A stretch of DNA of 64,000 bases from Peribacillus simplex (GTDB taxonomy: Bacteria > Bacillota > Bacilli > Bacillales > DSM-1321). Shown here piece by piece: positions 57,386-64,000 of the stretch. The notes below the pieces were generated by a model. That model did no database searches. It was not told where the DNA came from and saw only the letters and a list, made by a program, of their open reading frames with translations. The DNA lies in NCBI RefSeq assembly GCF_001542915.1, contig NZ_LNNH01000003.1:1-64000 (forward strand). The letters are read 5' to 3'. The position numbers were made by a program, and so were the translations under genes. Every line of letters starts with the position of its first letter. Position 1 is the stretch's first letter.

Positions 57386-58567
57386 TTACTTGCCTTTATC
57401 ATTTAGCTTCATCCCTCTTATCAGTACTTCTGCCACTTCCGGACGGGTGAACTCCAACGGTGGAATCAGTCCCTTCCGCAGCATTTCCCTGACTTTCGTC
57501 CCGCTTAATATGAATCTATCTTCTTCTGTATGTGGACAAGTTTTCAAGGACGCCATATTCAAACACTTTTTACAGTAAAAGCTATGCTCAAAGAACAACG
57601 GTTTTATGCCAATCTTCACCGGGTCGAACTGGCTGAAAATTTCTTGGGCCTCATACGTGCCATAATAATCGCCTACACCCGCATGATCACGGCCAACAAT
57701 AAAATGGGTGCACCCATAATTCTTGCGGACGATGGCATGAAAGACCGCTTCCCGAGGACCTGCATAGCGCATGGCAGCAGGATATATGGCAAGCAAGACC
57801 CGATCCGTGGGGTAGTAATTTTTTAATAGGGCCTGATAGCTTTCCATTCGAATATTTGCTGGTATATCATCCTCTTTCGTCTCACCGACCAGAGGGTGCA
57901 ATAGGAGTCCATCAACGGTTTCCAATGCGTTTTTTTGCAAATATTCATGAGCCCGATGTACAGGATTCCTCGTCTGAAAACCTACCACCGTCTTCCAACC
58001 TAGTTCAGCGAACATCTTTCTCGTTTGTGCAGGATTCAAATGAAATTTTTCAAAGGGTTTATGTGAGGCCTTGTTTATGTGATGAATAGGTCCTGCTACA
58101 TATATGTCCCCCTGACCAAACAGTTTTTTCACTCCAGGATGGTTATGGTCCACTGTTTTATACACAAGTTTTGCTTCCTGATGTTTATCGTATTCAAATT
58201 TCTCTTCAACTAAAATGATGCCGGCAAGCTCTCCTTCATCCGTGTATAATGCGACTTCATCGCCAATTTTCATTTGCCCTGCCTCTTCTTTCGTTACAGG
58301 GAGAGTGATGGGTATGGTCCATGGCAATCCGTTCGCTAAATGCATATCATTAATGACACTTTCGTAATCCGCTTTTCCCATGAATCCAATTAGTGGACTA
58401 AACCCACCATTTGAAATCATTTCCAAGTCAGACGCAATCCATTTCGATATTGTCAGTGAAAATAAGGATTCGCACATATCCAAATACTGTTTTCTGGCCT
58501 TTTCCGTTAATTCACGCTGGATCAGTTTGCCGCCATGTGGATCGATAGTGTTCCATTGAACATTCAT
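57386..58567 (-). CDS. sat: Sulfate adenylyltransferase Sat
   Basis: A 393-residue ATP sulfurylase (PF01747/PF14306) that makes adenosine 5'-phosphosulfate (APS) from sulfate and ATP. It has the N-terminal PUA-like domain and the catalytic motifs [15 protein letters not shown] and [15 protein letters not shown] cysteine pattern near the end ([17 protein letters not shown]) is the zinc-ribbon-like insert common in Bacillus Sat. The frame opens at 58585; GAGAGG lies six bases before the ATG at 58567. Last gene of a TSUP-cysC-sat operon. Confidence 0.93.
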
Positions 58568-58626
58568 ATATAACCTCTCAATCATTTGATTTCATTCGTT
58601 TTATATGCTCCTTTTCAAACCCGACA

Positions 58627-59223
58627 TCACATGCCCGCATCGATTAAATAGTCGATGATTTGCTGCACGCATTCCTCTATCGTGTTCTGACTCGTTTCAA
58701 TGATGATTTCCGGATTCTCCGGTTCTTCATAGGGAGCCGATACGCCAGTAAACTGAGTGATTTCACCAATTCTAGCTTTCTTATACAATCCTTTTGGATC
58801 CCGTTCTTCACAGGCTTCAATCGGACACTTTACATATATCTCGATAAATTCATCGGTTTTCACCTTTTTTCTGACATCCTTGCGGTCATTGGCATAGGGA
58901 GATATGAAAGTGGCCAATACGACGATTCCGCTATCAACAAAAATTTTGGACATTTCTCCTATTCGCCTTATATTCTCTTTCCGGTCATTCGCACTGAAGC
59001 CAAGATCTTCATTCAGACCATTTCGTAAGTTATCTCCATCTAATATATACGTCGAAATACCTTTTGCATGAAGCCTGGCCTCAACCATATTTGCGATGGT
59101 GGACTTACCTGAACCTGATAATCCTGTAAACCAAAGAATATAGCTTTTATGTCCGTGCAGCGCTTGCCTATGCTGTTTCGTAATTGAAAAAACATGTTTA
59201 TGGATATTCTCATGTTGACTCAC
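58627..59223 (-). CDS. cysC: Adenylylsulfate kinase CysC
   Basis: A 198-residue APS kinase (PF01583) that phosphorylates APS to PAPS (3'-phosphoadenylylsulfate). Walker A is [29 protein letters not shown] and [13 protein letters not shown] bind APS. The frame extends to 59265, but AAAGGGG lies seven bases before GTG at 59223, giving the usual Bacillus CysC length. It lies 13 bases after the TSUP gene and 59 before sat. PAPS is the sulfate donor for sulfotransferases, and one is encoded 4 kb away. Confidence 0.93.
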
Positions 59224-59236
59224 ACTATTTCCCCTT

Positions 59237-60091
59237 TTACCGTTTTTTATTGTTCCGGATGACAAAAATCAAGGAACCTGCCCACCCAAGCAAAATCAGC
59301 AAATAAATGGACATAGCCCAATCATCGACGCCACAAGTGACAATCAACGTTCGCGCATTCGTCAGAACGATGAAGCCCCCAACGAGGACACCCAATAAAT
59401 GCGAAGGCAATTTTGTTACGATCCATGCAGCAATGGGAGCGGCAATGATTCCCCCAGCCATCAAGGAGATGACCCAAAACCAATTCACGTCCTGCCACCC
59501 CAGGGCAATGAGAAAACCAAGGGTTGCTGAAACGGCAATCGCGAATTCACTTGTATCAACGGTACCCACCACTTTTCTGGCAGGGACTCCTTTTTGTGAT
59601 AGTAGAACTGGAGTGGTGATCGGTCCCCATCCTCCCCCGCCGGTTGCATCGGCAAAGCCAGCTACAAGTCCCAATAGTACCGATTTTTTTCTTGAGAGAT
59701 TAATTGATTTCTTTTCACTTGTTTTGGTCGTTCTTAAAAAACGAAAAAGGACAAATACGCCAAGAATCAGTAAAAACAAGGAAATATACGGTTTAATCAC
59801 TTCACCAGGCAATTGACTTAAAAAACACGCTCCTGCAAATGCCCCGATCGATCCGGGGATGATCAATTTGAAAAGCGCTTGGCGATCGACATTCCCGAAT
59901 TTCAAATGCGAAACGCCAGATGCCGCCGTTGTCACGACTTCCGCCAAATGGACGGATGCAGAGGCTACAGCCGGAGCGATTCCGAAAGTCAACAACAAAG
60001 AGGTGGATGTAACTCCATATGCCATTCCTAAAGAGCCATCGATTAGCTGAGCCAAAAATCCAATAAACGCGAAAACAATAAGCTTTCTCAT
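59237..60091 (-). CDS. TSUP/TauE-SafE family transporter
   Basis: A 284-residue membrane protein (PF01925) with about eight hydrophobic segments in two halves. Landmarks are [38 protein letters not shown] and the second repeat [20 protein letters not shown]. Members move sulfite, sulfate, sulfonates or related anions. First in an operon with cysC and sat, so sulfate uptake (in place of CysP) or sulfite export are both possible. No ribosome binding site problem: ATG at 60091 follows GGAGGC. Confidence 0.86.
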
Positions 60092-60454
60092 GTTAGCCTC
60101 CTACAAAGCATTTCCTTTTTAAAGGAGCTGTTTCCATAACTTCCATCACAATTCAATCCATTGGCGCTCGTCCGATGTCCATTACCCCATAACAAAATAA
60201 ATGACATCCCCGCCATATATGCAACTTCTATAGGATATGCAATCAAAGCGCTGGATGCTATAGACTTGTGTCTGAAAAAGAGTCAATGCATGAAGAAGGA
60301 CCACTCGATTCCCTCAACAAAAAAAGCCCCTTAAGGGCCTTCTTTTCCAGTTTAGTTATCATGCAAGATGGAATGGATCGGGTATGCGAGTCCAAGGGAG
60401 ACACCACCAGGCTAAAGGCTCCAACAATATGCCCCTTAAAGAGAGGCTATTTCC
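60092..60454. other. Gap between the TSUP gene and the glycosyltransferase gene
   Basis: No gene. It holds the promoter region of the sulfate operon, the glycosyltransferase terminator (60319-60348) and, near 60380-60430, a fragment that weakly resembles the GC-rich interspersed repeat. Confidence 0.4.
60319..60348 (-). terminator. Terminator of the family 2 glycosyltransferase gene
   Basis: On the minus strand GGCCCTT and AAGGGGC pair and are followed by a run of seven T. It lies about 105 bases past the stop. Confidence 0.6.
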
Positions 60455-61171
60455 CTACTGGTTCCTCAGCTCCGTCACTAACAATTGCTTCATTTTTGCA
60501 TGATGTCGATTGACAACGAACCGATTTTCCCTTTTGATGCTGCCTGCATATTTCTTGGTCCCCATTTGAGTATGGATTCGATATTGTAATAACGGTTTGG
60601 GCACAAAGTGAAATTTGTAGTTTTGCATGATGCGCAGCCATAAATCATAATCGTGTGTGTATAGGAGGGCTTCGTCAAAAACCCCGATTTGCTCAAATAC
60701 CTTTTTCTGAATCATGACGGAGCAGCCATTGATAATATTCCCCTTGATCATCGCTTTAATGAATTCAAGCCGTGTGGGCGGATTGATCCCGATGACCGGG
60801 GTGATGATTTCTCCGTTTTCATCGATGCAATAATAACTCGTATAGCTAAATTGGGCATTTTCCCTTTCCATTAAACGTAACTGGATTTCCGTTTTTTCCG
60901 GGTAAAAGATGTCATCAGAACTAAGCCAGCATATATAGTCACCTGTTGCATGTTCGATGCCAGTATTCAAGGCACTCGCTGTTCCGCCATTTTCCTTTTT
61001 GATAAATAGGATTTTATCTAGAAACGGTTCGATTTTTTCTGAATATAATGTAGAGCCATCATCAACTACGATTATTTCAATATTTTTGTAGGTTTGGTTG
61101 ATTAAACTCTCCAAAGCTTTTTCAATGTATGGACAATTGTAGAATGGAACAATGATCGATACTTTTGACAT
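60455..61171 (-). CDS. Family 2 glycosyltransferase
   Basis: A 238-residue GT-A fold glycosyltransferase (PF00535). The start KVSIIVPFYN, the nucleotide-sugar aspartates in EIIVVDDGS (near residue 38) and the metal-binding SSDD (near 86) are clear; YTHDYDLWLRIM near residue 175 lies in the acceptor region. No membrane segment. The frame opens at 61237, but AAAGGCGG lies seven bases before the ATG at 61171. It likely adds a sugar to a surface polysaccharide or glycoprotein. The gene after the window's edge (63571) is a paralogue with the same HDY-W motif. Confidence 0.86.
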   Translation of the reverse strand: MSKVSIIVPFYNCPYIEKALESLINQTYKNIEIIVVDDGSTLYSEKIEPFLDKILFIKKENGGTASALNTGIEHATGDYICWLSSDDIFYPEKTEIQLRLMERENAQFSYTSYYCIDENGEIITPVIGINPPTRLEFIKAMIKGNIINGCSVMIQKKVFEQIGVFDEALLYTHDYDLWLRIMQNYKFHFVPKPLLQYRIHTQMGTKKYAGSIKRENRFVVNRHHAKMKQLLVTELRNQ

Positions 61172-61444
61172 GTACGAACCGCCTTTCAAGTAATGATTGT
61201 CTACCCATGCGTTATGGATAAGGATGAACTCTTCCATGGTTATATTTATTTCACACGTATAAGATGTGTTCCATTCCCTAGTCTGGTCATTACTGAGATT
61301 AAAACGGCAATAAAACCACCATTCATGTCATACGTATATTAGATGGTCGTATCCATTCGAATTGGAGGGATAGGTAGTTTGTTCAGATAATATGAAATTG
61401 AAAACCCAGAGCCTTGTTGCTCCATTTTTATGAGGAGGGGAAGA

Positions 61445-62524
61445 ATGAATATTTTGTTTGTTTTCTACGTTCCGAGTGGCGGTGTGGAAACATTGAATCG
61501 GCAGCGATTTATCGCGCTGAAAGAGCACGGTATCCATGCTCATTTTCTTTATTATGAAAACAGAAGGAATTACTTGAATGACCATAGTGCCCCAACATTC
61601 GTAACGAATGACAATGATGAAATCAAGGGGATATTGGAAGATGGGAACTATGCCGCTATCGTCATCGTTTCGGATTTCAATACGTTACCCAGATTCAGGT
61701 CCATGGGCTATAAAGGAAAAATGATCATAGAAATACAGGGATATGGTCCGAAACATGTCGCCAGAAAGGCACTTACCAATGCCATTGAAGTTGTCAATGA
61801 ACATGCAGATGGGTTCCTTAATCCGAAAACGCCACATATCATGCAGTTATTGGATGAACTTTACCCGTCCTTTCCAACTTTCTCTTTTAATAATTGTTTT
61901 GATACCACTCAATTCGCACACAAAGAAATGTCCTTGGATGGCTTTAAAAAAATCGCTTGGATCGGAAGAATCGAAGATAACAAGAATTGGAGCGAATTCC
62001 TGAAGATAGGATATCAACTAATCAACAATTACAATCCGGATATCCGATTACTTATGTTTGAAGACCCTACATTAAGTGACCCCATTGAAAGAATCAAATT
62101 CGATAAAACGGTCAGCCGGTTAAATTTGAAAAGCAGACTTACGTTGCACTCCAATGTTCCGAATTCGCAAATGGCCGATTTTTTCTCTGTAATCGGTGAT
62201 TCGGGTGGCTTTTTATGTTCCACTTCCAAGGTGGAGGGGGCCCCTTATGCATTGCTTGAAGCAATGAGTTGCAGATGCCCGGTGCTCACGACCGATTCCG
62301 ATGGTGTAAGAAGTTCCATCATCCATGATCAAACAGGGAAATTTTATTCATTGGGCAACATTGATAGTGCCGTCAAAGAGGCGAAGGAGCTAATGAATAA
62401 CGAGAGCCTGAGGGAAAATATCCGGGAAAACGCGCTGGAGCACGTAATCAAGAATTTCAGTCCAGATTTATATGCCCGCAATTTCATCGAAATGCTCGAA
62501 ACACTAGGAATATCCTCTGAATAA
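61445..62524 (+). CDS. Family 4 glycosyltransferase (GT-B)
   Basis: A 359-residue GT-B glycosyltransferase (PF00534). The N-terminal domain begins MNILFVFYVPSGGVETLNRQ; the C-terminal domain has IAWIGRIEDNKNWSEFLKIG and the nucleotide-sugar site STSKVEGAPYALLEAMSC, with the E-x7-E pattern. It is soluble and probably works on the inner membrane face. GAGGAGGGG lies before the ATG at 61445; the longer frame to 61430 lacks a site. It is divergent from the family 2 enzyme and converges with the sulfotransferase gene. Confidence 0.87.
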   Translation: MNILFVFYVPSGGVETLNRQRFIALKEHGIHAHFLYYENRRNYLNDHSAPTFVTNDNDEIKGILEDGNYAAIVIVSDFNTLPRFRSMGYKGKMIIEIQGYGPKHVARKALTNAIEVVNEHADGFLNPKTPHIMQLLDELYPSFPTFSFNNCFDTTQFAHKEMSLDGFKKIAWIGRIEDNKNWSEFLKIGYQLINNYNPDIRLLMFEDPTLSDPIERIKFDKTVSRLNLKSRLTLHSNVPNSQMADFFSVIGDSGGFLCSTSKVEGAPYALLEAMSCRCPVLTTDSDGVRSSIIHDQTGKFYSLGNIDSAVKEAKELMNNESLRENIRENALEHVIKNFSPDLYARNFIEMLETLGISSE

Positions 62525-62532
62525 TAAGAAAA

Positions 62533-62560
62533 ACAGCCGGGATTATTTCATTCCGGCTGT
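62533..62560. terminator. Bidirectional terminator
   Basis: ACAGCCGG and CCGGCTGT form an 8-base stem between the family 4 glycosyltransferase and the converging sulfotransferase gene. Confidence 0.75.
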
Positions 62561-62597
62561 CGTTCATTTTATTGAAACATTTCCCTGGCTGTTTAAT

Positions 62598-63317
62598 TCA
62601 GGAGCCCTGCTTAAGCTTGAATTCTTCCAATTGCTGACGCTCAACTACTGTCAACGTTTGAAGCTTTTCATGAAGCAGTTCCTTTGCAAAATCGTATAAG
62701 GACATATCCAGGTGATTATATTGCTTGATCAGGTTTATTAATTCCGATGGTATTTCTTTTTTTGCCAGTCGTTTTTTTGTAATATTTTTTCTAGTATAGT
62801 GTATATCTCCCCATGCAAGTTGCTTTTTCAAACAAAAAAGAGTTTCATTGAACATCTCGGTGACTCCAACCAATGAAAATGTTTTAAGATTCTCCTTCGC
62901 TTTTTCCAAATCAGGTATTTCCTGACTCCCGCATACCATCAATGTTTGCAGATTCGATGCTTCGGGGCCTTTTACTACAAATTCCTCCAAAGTCATTTCT
63001 TTTACCATTTCGTAACCTGGGTAGTCCTTTAAAAAATAATAAGCAGAAATGACCCGATCTACAGGATCGCGCAGCATCGTAAAATAATGGAATGGTTTTG
63101 AAAACTCCTCATGTATTCCATAGAAATAATGACCGGAAACCGCTTTGATATTCTTCTTTTCCTGTTCCGTTAACTCGGACAGCTTCATCATCTTCTTTTC
63201 GAACGAGTCATGATCATATATTTCTCTAAGTTTGTATTGTCTTTTTAATATTTCATTGATCGTCGTTCCCCCTGTTTTGGGAACATGCATAAAAATATCC
63301 AGTACACCTTCGGACAT
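62598..63317 (-). CDS. PAPS-dependent sulfotransferase (Sulfotransfer_2 family)
   Basis: A 239-residue protein of the heparan-sulfate-type sulfotransferase family (PF03567). The 5'-phosphosulfate loop is HVPKTGGTT (residues 11-19) and the 3'-phosphate site is LRDPVDRVISAYY (82-94), where arginine and serine bind PAPS. No signal peptide or membrane anchor, so it would act in the cytoplasm on a lipid-linked or nucleotide-linked glycan, or on a protein. The Sat and CysC genes nearby make its donor. Acceptor unknown. ATG at 63317 follows GGGAGGAG. Confidence 0.87.
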   Translation of the reverse strand: MSEGVLDIFMHVPKTGGTTINEILKRQYKLREIYDHDSFEKKMMKLSELTEQEKKNIKAVSGHYFYGIHEEFSKPFHYFTMLRDPVDRVISAYYFLKDYPGYEMVKEMTLEEFVVKGPEASNLQTLMVCGSQEIPDLEKAKENLKTFSLVGVTEMFNETLFCLKKQLAWGDIHYTRKNITKKRLAKKEIPSELINLIKQYNHLDMSLYDFAKELLHEKLQTLTVVERQQLEEFKLKQGS

Positions 63318-63394
63318 AAATGTACTCCTCCCTCTTCCAAAAAGCTCTTTTTATGAGTGGGCTGTTTTCTCATACTTTGTTACCATTCACGAAG

Positions 63395-63520
63395 TAATCC
63401 GTTGTAGTCGATTTCCCCTCCGGTGCTCCGCTTTACAGAAGGCCGTCAGTGAGCCTCTCCGGCGTGGACCTTGTTATGTCCCGCCTATCCAGCTGCTCAA
63501 GCAGGAGTCCGCCACTCCAA
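63395..63520. repeat. Degenerate copy of the GC-rich interspersed repeat
   Basis: Contains CCGGTGCTCCGCTTTACAGA, CAGTGAGCCTCTCCGGC and CAAGCAGGAGTCCGCC, which match inverted parts of the full copies only loosely. GC content is higher than in flanking sequence. Confidence 0.45.
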
Positions 63521-63570
63521 TCAACCTTAAATCGTTTCATTTGAAAAACAACGATCCTTACGAAAAGAGC

Positions 63571-64000
63571 CTATAAATTTTTCAAGTTCTTTTTAAGAAT
63601 TGGACGATAATGGCTTTCAATCGTGAGAATATCCGCTAGCATTTCAGGCTGGAATCTACTTGTACCAGACCCTTCGTGTATCCTGAATTTTGTGAGAACT
63701 TCATCCAAATAATACATTTTATATCCATTGACTAAAAGACGAAGCCACATTTCATAATCATGCGTATAGCGGTGATAGGTATTAAAATAGCCGACCACAT
63801 CGAATACGTCCTTCTTCAACACCACGGTGCAACCATTCACGGCATTACGAAGTAAAAATGCATGGTACACTCCGTTTTCTATATCCGTAAAGCGCTCTCC
63901 CGTCCAAGACAAAATGATTTCATCGTCCTTATTGATACTATCAAAATTCGTAAAGCTCACCTCTGCACCATGTTCGAGCATAAAGGAAATTTGATTTGAT
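63571..64000 (-). CDS. Family 2 glycosyltransferase, C-terminal part (runs off window)
   Basis: The last 142 codons of a GT2 enzyme; the frame stays open to the window end, so the true start lies outside. It has the same late motif (YTHDYEMWLRLLVNGY) as the enzyme at 60455-61171, and GCTVVLKKDVFDVVGYF matches that protein's corresponding segment. The missing N-terminal half should hold the nucleotide-sugar aspartates. It is on the same strand as, and upstream of, the sulfotransferase gene, with 250 bases of repeat-like sequence between them. Confidence 0.8.
   Translation of the reverse strand, partial: SNQISFMLEHGAEVSFTNFDSINKDDEIILSWTGERFTDIENGVYHAFLLRNAVNGCTVVLKKDVFDVVGYFNTYHRYTHDYEMWLRLLVNGYKMYYLDEVLTKFRIHEGSGTSRFQPEMLADILTIESHYRPILKKNLKNL

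Follow-up and report, generated by a model that had tools for sequence, protein, structure and literature searches.

Why would a spore-forming bacterium keep a second set of genes for activated sulfate beside a sulfotransferase (ST) and several glycosyltransferases (GTs)? The question is raised by a stretch of DNA from Peribacillus simplex (assembly GCF_001542915.1), called the window below; it is the whole 64,000-base stretch that was analysed and corresponds to bases 1–64000 of the 154,021-base contig C3 (NZ_LNNH01000003.1) of a 5.11 Mb genome. Towards its end lie genes for an ATP sulfurylase (Sat) and an adenosine 5'-phosphosulfate (APS) kinase (CysC), the enzymes that make 3'-phosphoadenosine 5'-phosphosulfate (PAPS). 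According to the original prediction, this PAPS pool serves the sulfation of a surface polysaccharide, a spore coat glycan or a glycoprotein. Glycan sulfation is supported by the comparisons reported here, and the best explanation, which is considered probable from gene content and context, is a self-contained glycan-sulfation locus whose product would be a sulfated spore-surface glycan. In the proposed mechanism, a TauE/SafE-family transporter (TauE2) would import sulfate, Sat2 and CysC2 would convert it to PAPS, and a cytosolic ST of family PF03567 would transfer the sulfate to a sugar within a glycan. This glycan would be built by four glycosyltransferases (GT2a, GT4a, GT2b and GT4b) from nucleotide sugars supplied by neighbouring dehydratase and epimerase genes. 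Synthesis would occur in the mother-cell cytoplasm, and the glycan would be laid on the forespore as a crust- or exosporium-like sulfated coating of the spore surface.

Does the PAPS module belong to sulfate assimilation or to sulfation? The genes form one unit on the minus strand, consisting of TauE2 (59237–60091; PF01925), cysC2 (58627–59223; PF01583 above cut-off) and sat2 (57386–58585; PF01747 and PF14306 above cut-off). The transporter, which the original prediction had not named, presumably imports the sulfate for PAPS synthesis. Several orthologs of sat2 use an internal ATG (MNVQ) as the start; for cysC2, orthologs favour a GTG, and a longer TTG frame reaches 59265. In alignments, Sat2 and CysC2 look intact at their motifs for nucleotide binding and sulfurylase function. 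As had been claimed, the window holds no cysH. The single strong cysH match in the genome lies on contig C28, with its own sat–cysC pair, in an operon of the order cysH, sat, cysC, sulfite reductase, tetrapyrrole methylase, CbiX, SirC and a TauE gene (TauE1). Between the window and C28 copies, identity is 61% for Sat, 59% for CysC and 67% for TauE2 versus TauE1. Neither cysH nor sulfite reductase was found beside sat2 in the neighbourhoods read, whereas both accompany the C28 pair; a sulfurylase and an APS kinase are thus encoded inside the cluster, apart from the assimilation genes. A side observation concerns the residues after the FISP-aromatic motif, which are A-N-D-R in CysC2 and R-A-D-R in CysC1. 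The first Arg of the latter is replaced in all 10 window-type CysC copies aligned and in both copies from genomes G012 and G034.

The two kinds of Sat are also separated in a midpoint-rooted tree of 27 rows. The window-type Sat proteins (7 rows) form one clade (100/100), and the assimilatory ones (11 rows, all encoded by genes adjoining cysH) form another (96/94). Grouped with the window type (99/99) are Sat proteins of Virgibacillus and Bacillus sp. BHET2, which sit on long branches and whose genes are linked to an ST. A recent duplication of the assimilation genes is not supported, with sat2 in its separate clade under this root and the second sat of G012 and G034 falling elsewhere in the tree than the window type.

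The evidence that carries the argument comes from 43 genomes of the same GTDB family, for which a table of sat and ST genes was compiled manually. A PF03567 sulfotransferase is present in 10 of the 43. PF00685 matches occur in six, that of G012 being a weak overlap with its PF03567 enzymes, and PF13469 matches occur in two, both already counted under the other families. An intact window-type sat2 was found in 11 genomes, always together with TauE2 and cysC2. GT2a (60455–61171, with a longer frame to 61237, minus strand; PF00535) adjoins this block in 8 of the 11; it is more distant in G013 and G014, and the 20 kb read of G026 did not show it. GT4a (61445–62524, with a longer frame from 61430, plus strand; PF00534) is near the block in 10. 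An ST lies within about 11 kb of sat2 in 9 of the 11 genomes, so that the comparison of synteny in relatives, proposed as a check, came out in favour of a conserved linkage. The linked enzyme is of family PF03567 in five genomes (G000, G025, G021, G030 and G041) and of family PF00685 in four (G024, G031, G036 and G026). Put differently, six genomes have sat2 without an intact PF03567 gene beside it, and in four of these six a PF00685 ST is found there. In G024 and G031, the PF00685 domain forms a fusion protein with a GT2; in these two genomes and in G036, the PF00685 gene has the sat2 block on one side and the SDR/cap genes on the other, and in G026 it stands beside a broken PF03567 remnant. 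This exchange of the ST family while the PAPS genes stay, read from gene content, is the strongest evidence that the PAPS pool would serve sulfation. When intact STs of both families are set against an intact second sat, 11 genomes have both, 2 have the sat only, 3 have the ST only (G033, G032 and G005) and 27 have neither (Fisher p 4e-6, uncorrected for kinship). The genomes with both include G012 and G034, where a second sat–cysC pair of another lineage lies on the same contig as four PF03567 STs, at a distance of 3 kb in G034 and 24–41 kb in G012.

The locus seems to have been lost often. In G015, sat2 and TauE2 are broken and lie beside cluster remains. A second sat appears in G027, G028, G038, G023, G035 and G033 as fragment matches only, some of them short and weak (the neighbourhood was read for G033). 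Apart from G033, none of these seven genomes matches PF03567 or PF00685. For ST, sat2 and cysC2, the dN/dS ratio against three relatives is 0.06–0.15, with dS above 1 in 5 of the 9 pairs.

Is the linkage confined to this family? Species genomes were scanned with 14 STs, which gave at least 449 relatives; the best 80 were kept and correspond to 78 loci, split manually into 39 from Bacillota and 39 from other phyla, with both flanks full in 43 of the 78. Among the loci kept, sat and/or cysC occurs in the examined flanks of 20 of 39 Bacillota loci versus 2 of 39 loci of other phyla. Four of the Bacillota loci (L047, L050, L059 and L072) belong to genomes already among the 43; without them, the counts are 18 of 35 and, with full flanks, 18 of 27. 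Genes for cysH, sulfite reductase, sumT, cbiX and sirC were found in none of the examined flanks of the 78 kept loci. At the level of the order (397 genomes), two or more cysC genes are present in 18 of 32 genomes with an ST versus 59 of 365 without one; fewer than two are present in 14 of the 32, and extra cysC copies have other causes too.

These data bear directly on the idea that sat2–cysC2 is a spare module, either for cysH or for the synthesis of spore sulfolactate. A model for it is the yitBA–yisZ operon of Bacillus subtilis, which consists of a second sat–cysC set with a cysH paralog. This operon is expressed in the mother cell late in sporulation, and the role inferred for it is phosphosulfolactate synthesis and not sulfation (PMC517825). 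The resemblance of TauE2 to TauE1 of the assimilation operon also fits a spare module. However, no cysH paralog or sulfite reductase gene accompanies sat2 in the neighbourhoods read, none is seen in the examined flanks of the 78 ST loci kept, and sat2 co-occurs with STs; the idea is therefore considered very improbable. A back-up of assimilation was rejected as the main role because the C28 operon has its own sat–cysC pair and no cysH was seen in the examined flanks of the 78 loci kept. The case that would speak against the original prediction, a cysH gene relying on the window's sat–cysC alone and no conserved linkage to the sulfotransferase, fails in both halves, since cysH has its own pair on C28 and the ST linkage is conserved.

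What would the sulfate be transferred to? The ST (62598–63317, minus strand) scores 56.1 bits against PF03567, for which the cut-off is 22. Its binding loops had been described as intact, and the alignment with 14 ST relatives bears this out: K14, G17, H63 and S91 are invariant, and R83 is nearly so. The nearest solved relatives are heparan sulfate 2-O- and 6-O-sulfotransferases (3f5f, 4ndz and 5t03), which are animal enzymes bound to the Golgi membrane. Identity to them is 22–24%. The ST aligns with them at K, R and S, which belong to the PAPS site, and at the conserved His; H63, the candidate catalytic residue, falls on the His of GHVSY in the 2-O-enzyme (4ndz). A profile of the ST found the 6-O-enzyme with an E-value of 1.2e-18 and the 2-O-enzyme with 2.9e-15, and the same enzymes came first in a fold search (TM-score over the query 0.61–0.65, rmsd 5.7–7.6). 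No membrane stretch was detected in the ST by hydropathy. Family membership thus supports a sugar as the probable acceptor. The ST might instead sulfate a protein or a small molecule, the glycan genes being adjacent for another reason; several kinds of PAPS sulfotransferase exist, and the sequence does not tell the acceptor. PF03567 and the heparan sulfate enzymes nevertheless point to sugars, GT genes are conserved neighbours, and two genomes encode a fusion of a GT2 with an ST of the other family; this alternative is considered quite unlikely.

If a glycan is sulfated, where is it made and placed? The cluster continues past the window, where a search for more glycan genes had been proposed, to about 71.9 kb of contig C3. 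GT2b, upstream of the ST, occupies 63571–64284 of the contig (minus strand) and is cut by the end of the window at 64000; its Pfam score is 110.9 bits when whole, with no match when cut. With it, every enzyme named in the original prediction (Sat, CysC, sulfotransferase, two GT2s and a GT4) has a Pfam match above the cut-off. Farther on, Pfam families identify an SDR/epimerase, a second GT4 (GT4b), another epimerase and a capF/capE/capG-like set, and a gene for a 146-aa protein is also present. The last set may belong to a UDP-N-acetyl-fucosamine-type pathway.

The same sulfation chemistry might yield a vegetative surface polysaccharide, such as an exopolysaccharide, a capsule or a wall polymer, with export machinery encoded elsewhere. 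Genes for GTs, dehydratases and epimerases of such kinds are also found in vegetative polysaccharide loci, and an ABC transporter and an MFS gene follow the cluster at 73–76.5 kb of the contig. In Vibrio sp. KMM 8419, PAPS genes and STs accompany a sulfated capsule (PMC11641403). On the other side, the ABC gene encodes a fused ABC_membrane/ABC_tran protein, unlike the usual polysaccharide exporter, which consists of two proteins. No flippase, polymerase or lipid-carrier sugar transferase was found by Pfam among the 14 cluster proteins at 57.3–72 kb (the search did not extend to export genes in the rest of the genome), and TauE2 is the only one of the 14 with strongly hydrophobic stretches. By Pfam and hydropathy, the cluster therefore has the soluble enzymes and the lack of export machinery that mark an sps-type locus. 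The motifs of mother-cell promoters described next are in excess, which also argues against a vegetative product, and this alternative is judged rather unlikely.

The sequence CATANNNTA is the −10 motif that promoters of SigE and SigK share. It was found at most 200 bases upstream in 4 of 10 cluster units; the mean of shuffled sequences was 0.73, and none of 300 shuffles was as high. In the remaining units of the first 100 kb, it precedes 6 of 55 (mean 3.9). A sporulation-type −10 motif, CATATCCTA, lies at 60231–60239 on the minus strand, 148 bases before TauE2, and at the aligned place upstream of the sat2 unit CATANNNTA is present in 7 of 10 genomes compared. CATACAATA is conserved in all 5 genomes compared for capG, at −50 to −59, and in all 4 compared for the epimerase, at −37. 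Conservation of the −10 motif across relatives varies: 5 of 9 for GT2a, 4 of 6 for the SDR unit, 4 of 8 for the 146-aa gene, 2 of 10 for GT4a and 0 of 6 for GT4b. Control genes without the motif were EamA (0 of 3) and cysH (0 of 1). The genome has sigK as one full frame. A pooled test covered 34 of the 35 non-Peribacillus ST loci; L056, which is short, and the four overlapping loci L047, L050, L059 and L072 were left out. The motif preceded 45 of 197 units at loci with sat/cysC and 45 of 183 at loci without (shuffle means 15.6 and 17.6; none of 300 shuffles as high in either), with an own-genome background of 6 of 57 units (mean 3.8). The spacing in such promoters is described in a published study (PMC517825).

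The 146-aa protein has no family match. Its predicted structure (pLDDT 80) is a TNF-like beta-sandwich whose best matches are the BC2L-C and PLTL lectins; Bacillus anthracis BxpB ranks 29th, and this likeness of the model may offer a faint lead to the exosporium. A LysM-GH18 gene at 76.6–77.9 kb reached 34.4 of the 67.85 bits required by the SafA/ExsA spore-coat LysM model, which is below the cut-off. The soluble enzymes, the motif excess and the TNF-like neighbour are each suggestive of the spore. Among the three products originally considered, promoter motifs and cluster anatomy favour the spore surface. Synthesis of a sulfated spore-surface glycan in the mother-cell cytoplasm would be the best reading because no flippase or polymerase is found by Pfam at 57.3–72 kb, the enzymes look soluble, −10 motifs of the SigE/SigK type are in excess and a TNF-like protein is encoded nearby.

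Several observations weigh against a self-contained locus for a spore glycan. As to the PAPS supply, G013 and G014 keep TauE2–cysC2–sat2 with no match to PF03567, PF00685 or PF13469. P. deserti (G005) has an ST and several of the same GT genes, and its only sat is the one beside cysH; G033 has an ST with a mere fragment of a second sat, and G032 has an ST with one sat. Among the loci kept, sat/cysC was not seen at 11 of 31 full-flank Bacillota ST loci. Together with G005, these loci indicate that an own PAPS module is not obligatory. The rooting of the sat clade depends on the midpoint. The best AF2 model of the ST has a pLDDT of 85, and the five models range from 85 to 46. As to the promoters, an AC −35 element accompanies the −10 motif of the sat2 unit in 5 of 10 genomes, the window genome not being among them, and in G000 no such −10 motif precedes GT2a, GT4a, GT4b or the 146-aa gene. 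Some control genes carry it (MFS 3 of 3, ABC 2 of 3), the reverse strands in the pooled test gave 20 and 24, slightly above the shuffles, and single loci vary (L107 1 of 13, L123 0 of 10). Since the excess is the same at loci without sat/cysC, the motif speaks for the ST loci and not for the PAPS genes.

How does the locus compare with known systems? PAPS genes and sulfotransferases in a polysaccharide cluster have been called a hallmark of sulfated polysaccharide synthesis in work on the marine Vibrio sp. KMM 8419, so this kind of cluster is already known; that work describes a capsule cluster uniting second copies of cysC and ATP sulfurylase with sulfotransferases, GTs and nucleotide-sugar genes (PMC11641403). 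The Vibrio strain is Gram-negative and has a cysND-type sulfurylase and ABC capsule export (PMC11641403), whereas in the Peribacillus locus the sulfurylase is of the Sat type, the promoter motifs are spore-type and no exporter was seen among the cluster genes. In B. subtilis, the sps and spsM loci contain GT and nucleotide-sugar genes transcribed by SigK in the mother cell, and their product is on the spore surface; the part of the source seen mentions no sulfation, and the likeness is one of description, not of gene sequence (PMC7439481). The same source describes spore-surface glycans as little known even in B. subtilis. Another prokaryotic example of surface-glycan sulfation is given by the sulfotransferases Agl30 and Agl31 of Halobacterium salinarum, of which one is soluble; they modify an archaeal N-glycan and are likened to the ST by description, not sequence (PMC11980604). 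Among the papers listed in the literature searches, mostly without subscription papers, none dealt with sulfated glycans on Bacillaceae spores, and no paper searched mentions a sulfotransferase together with the exosporium. As far as these searches show, four elements are new: a spore former as the host, a Sat lineage of its own, the exchange of ST family around a retained PAPS block, and promoter motifs of the spore type.

A broader proposal is made tentatively, at slightly less than even expectation: many endospore formers of the Bacillota may run a sporulation-specific sulfation, with their own sulfurylase lineages and interchangeable ST families, that gives a sulfated heparan-like spore coating. 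If this is true, the coating would give spores a negative and variable surface through which they adhere and are recognized. The strong negative charge that sulfation would bring to the spore surface could influence how spores adhere, disperse and are recognized. In a Gram-positive bacterium, a soluble heparan-type ST that comes with its own source of PAPS would also be useful for the production of sulfated glycans.

Some further observations concern the surroundings of these loci. Near the second sat–cysC of G012 and G034 (L039–L043), several proteins of about 1200 aa and small histidine-rich proteins are encoded. In these surroundings, ten proteins were searched against Pfam and eight of these or their neighbours against NCBIfam, and none of them matched a named spore-coat family; two proteins, of 1220 aa and 553 aa, match multicopper oxidases. 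In G026 (L038), two FUT8/NodZ-like fucosyltransferase genes lie near sat2, and a further PF00685–PF03567 pair is found elsewhere in that genome (G026:C1:5124495-5126004). Peptidase_G2/YadA-head proteins, which are possible surface fibres, are encoded in the clusters of G041, G013 and G014 (L031:6827-8452, L034:3452-5068 and L036:103-1761). Finally, the sulfation locus of the window is adjoined at 49–56 kb by a sugar-acid catabolic gene set, which comprises a LacI-type regulator, a UxuA mannonate dehydratase, a KDPG-type aldolase, a zinc dehydrogenase, an Ldh_2 protein and a PfkB kinase.

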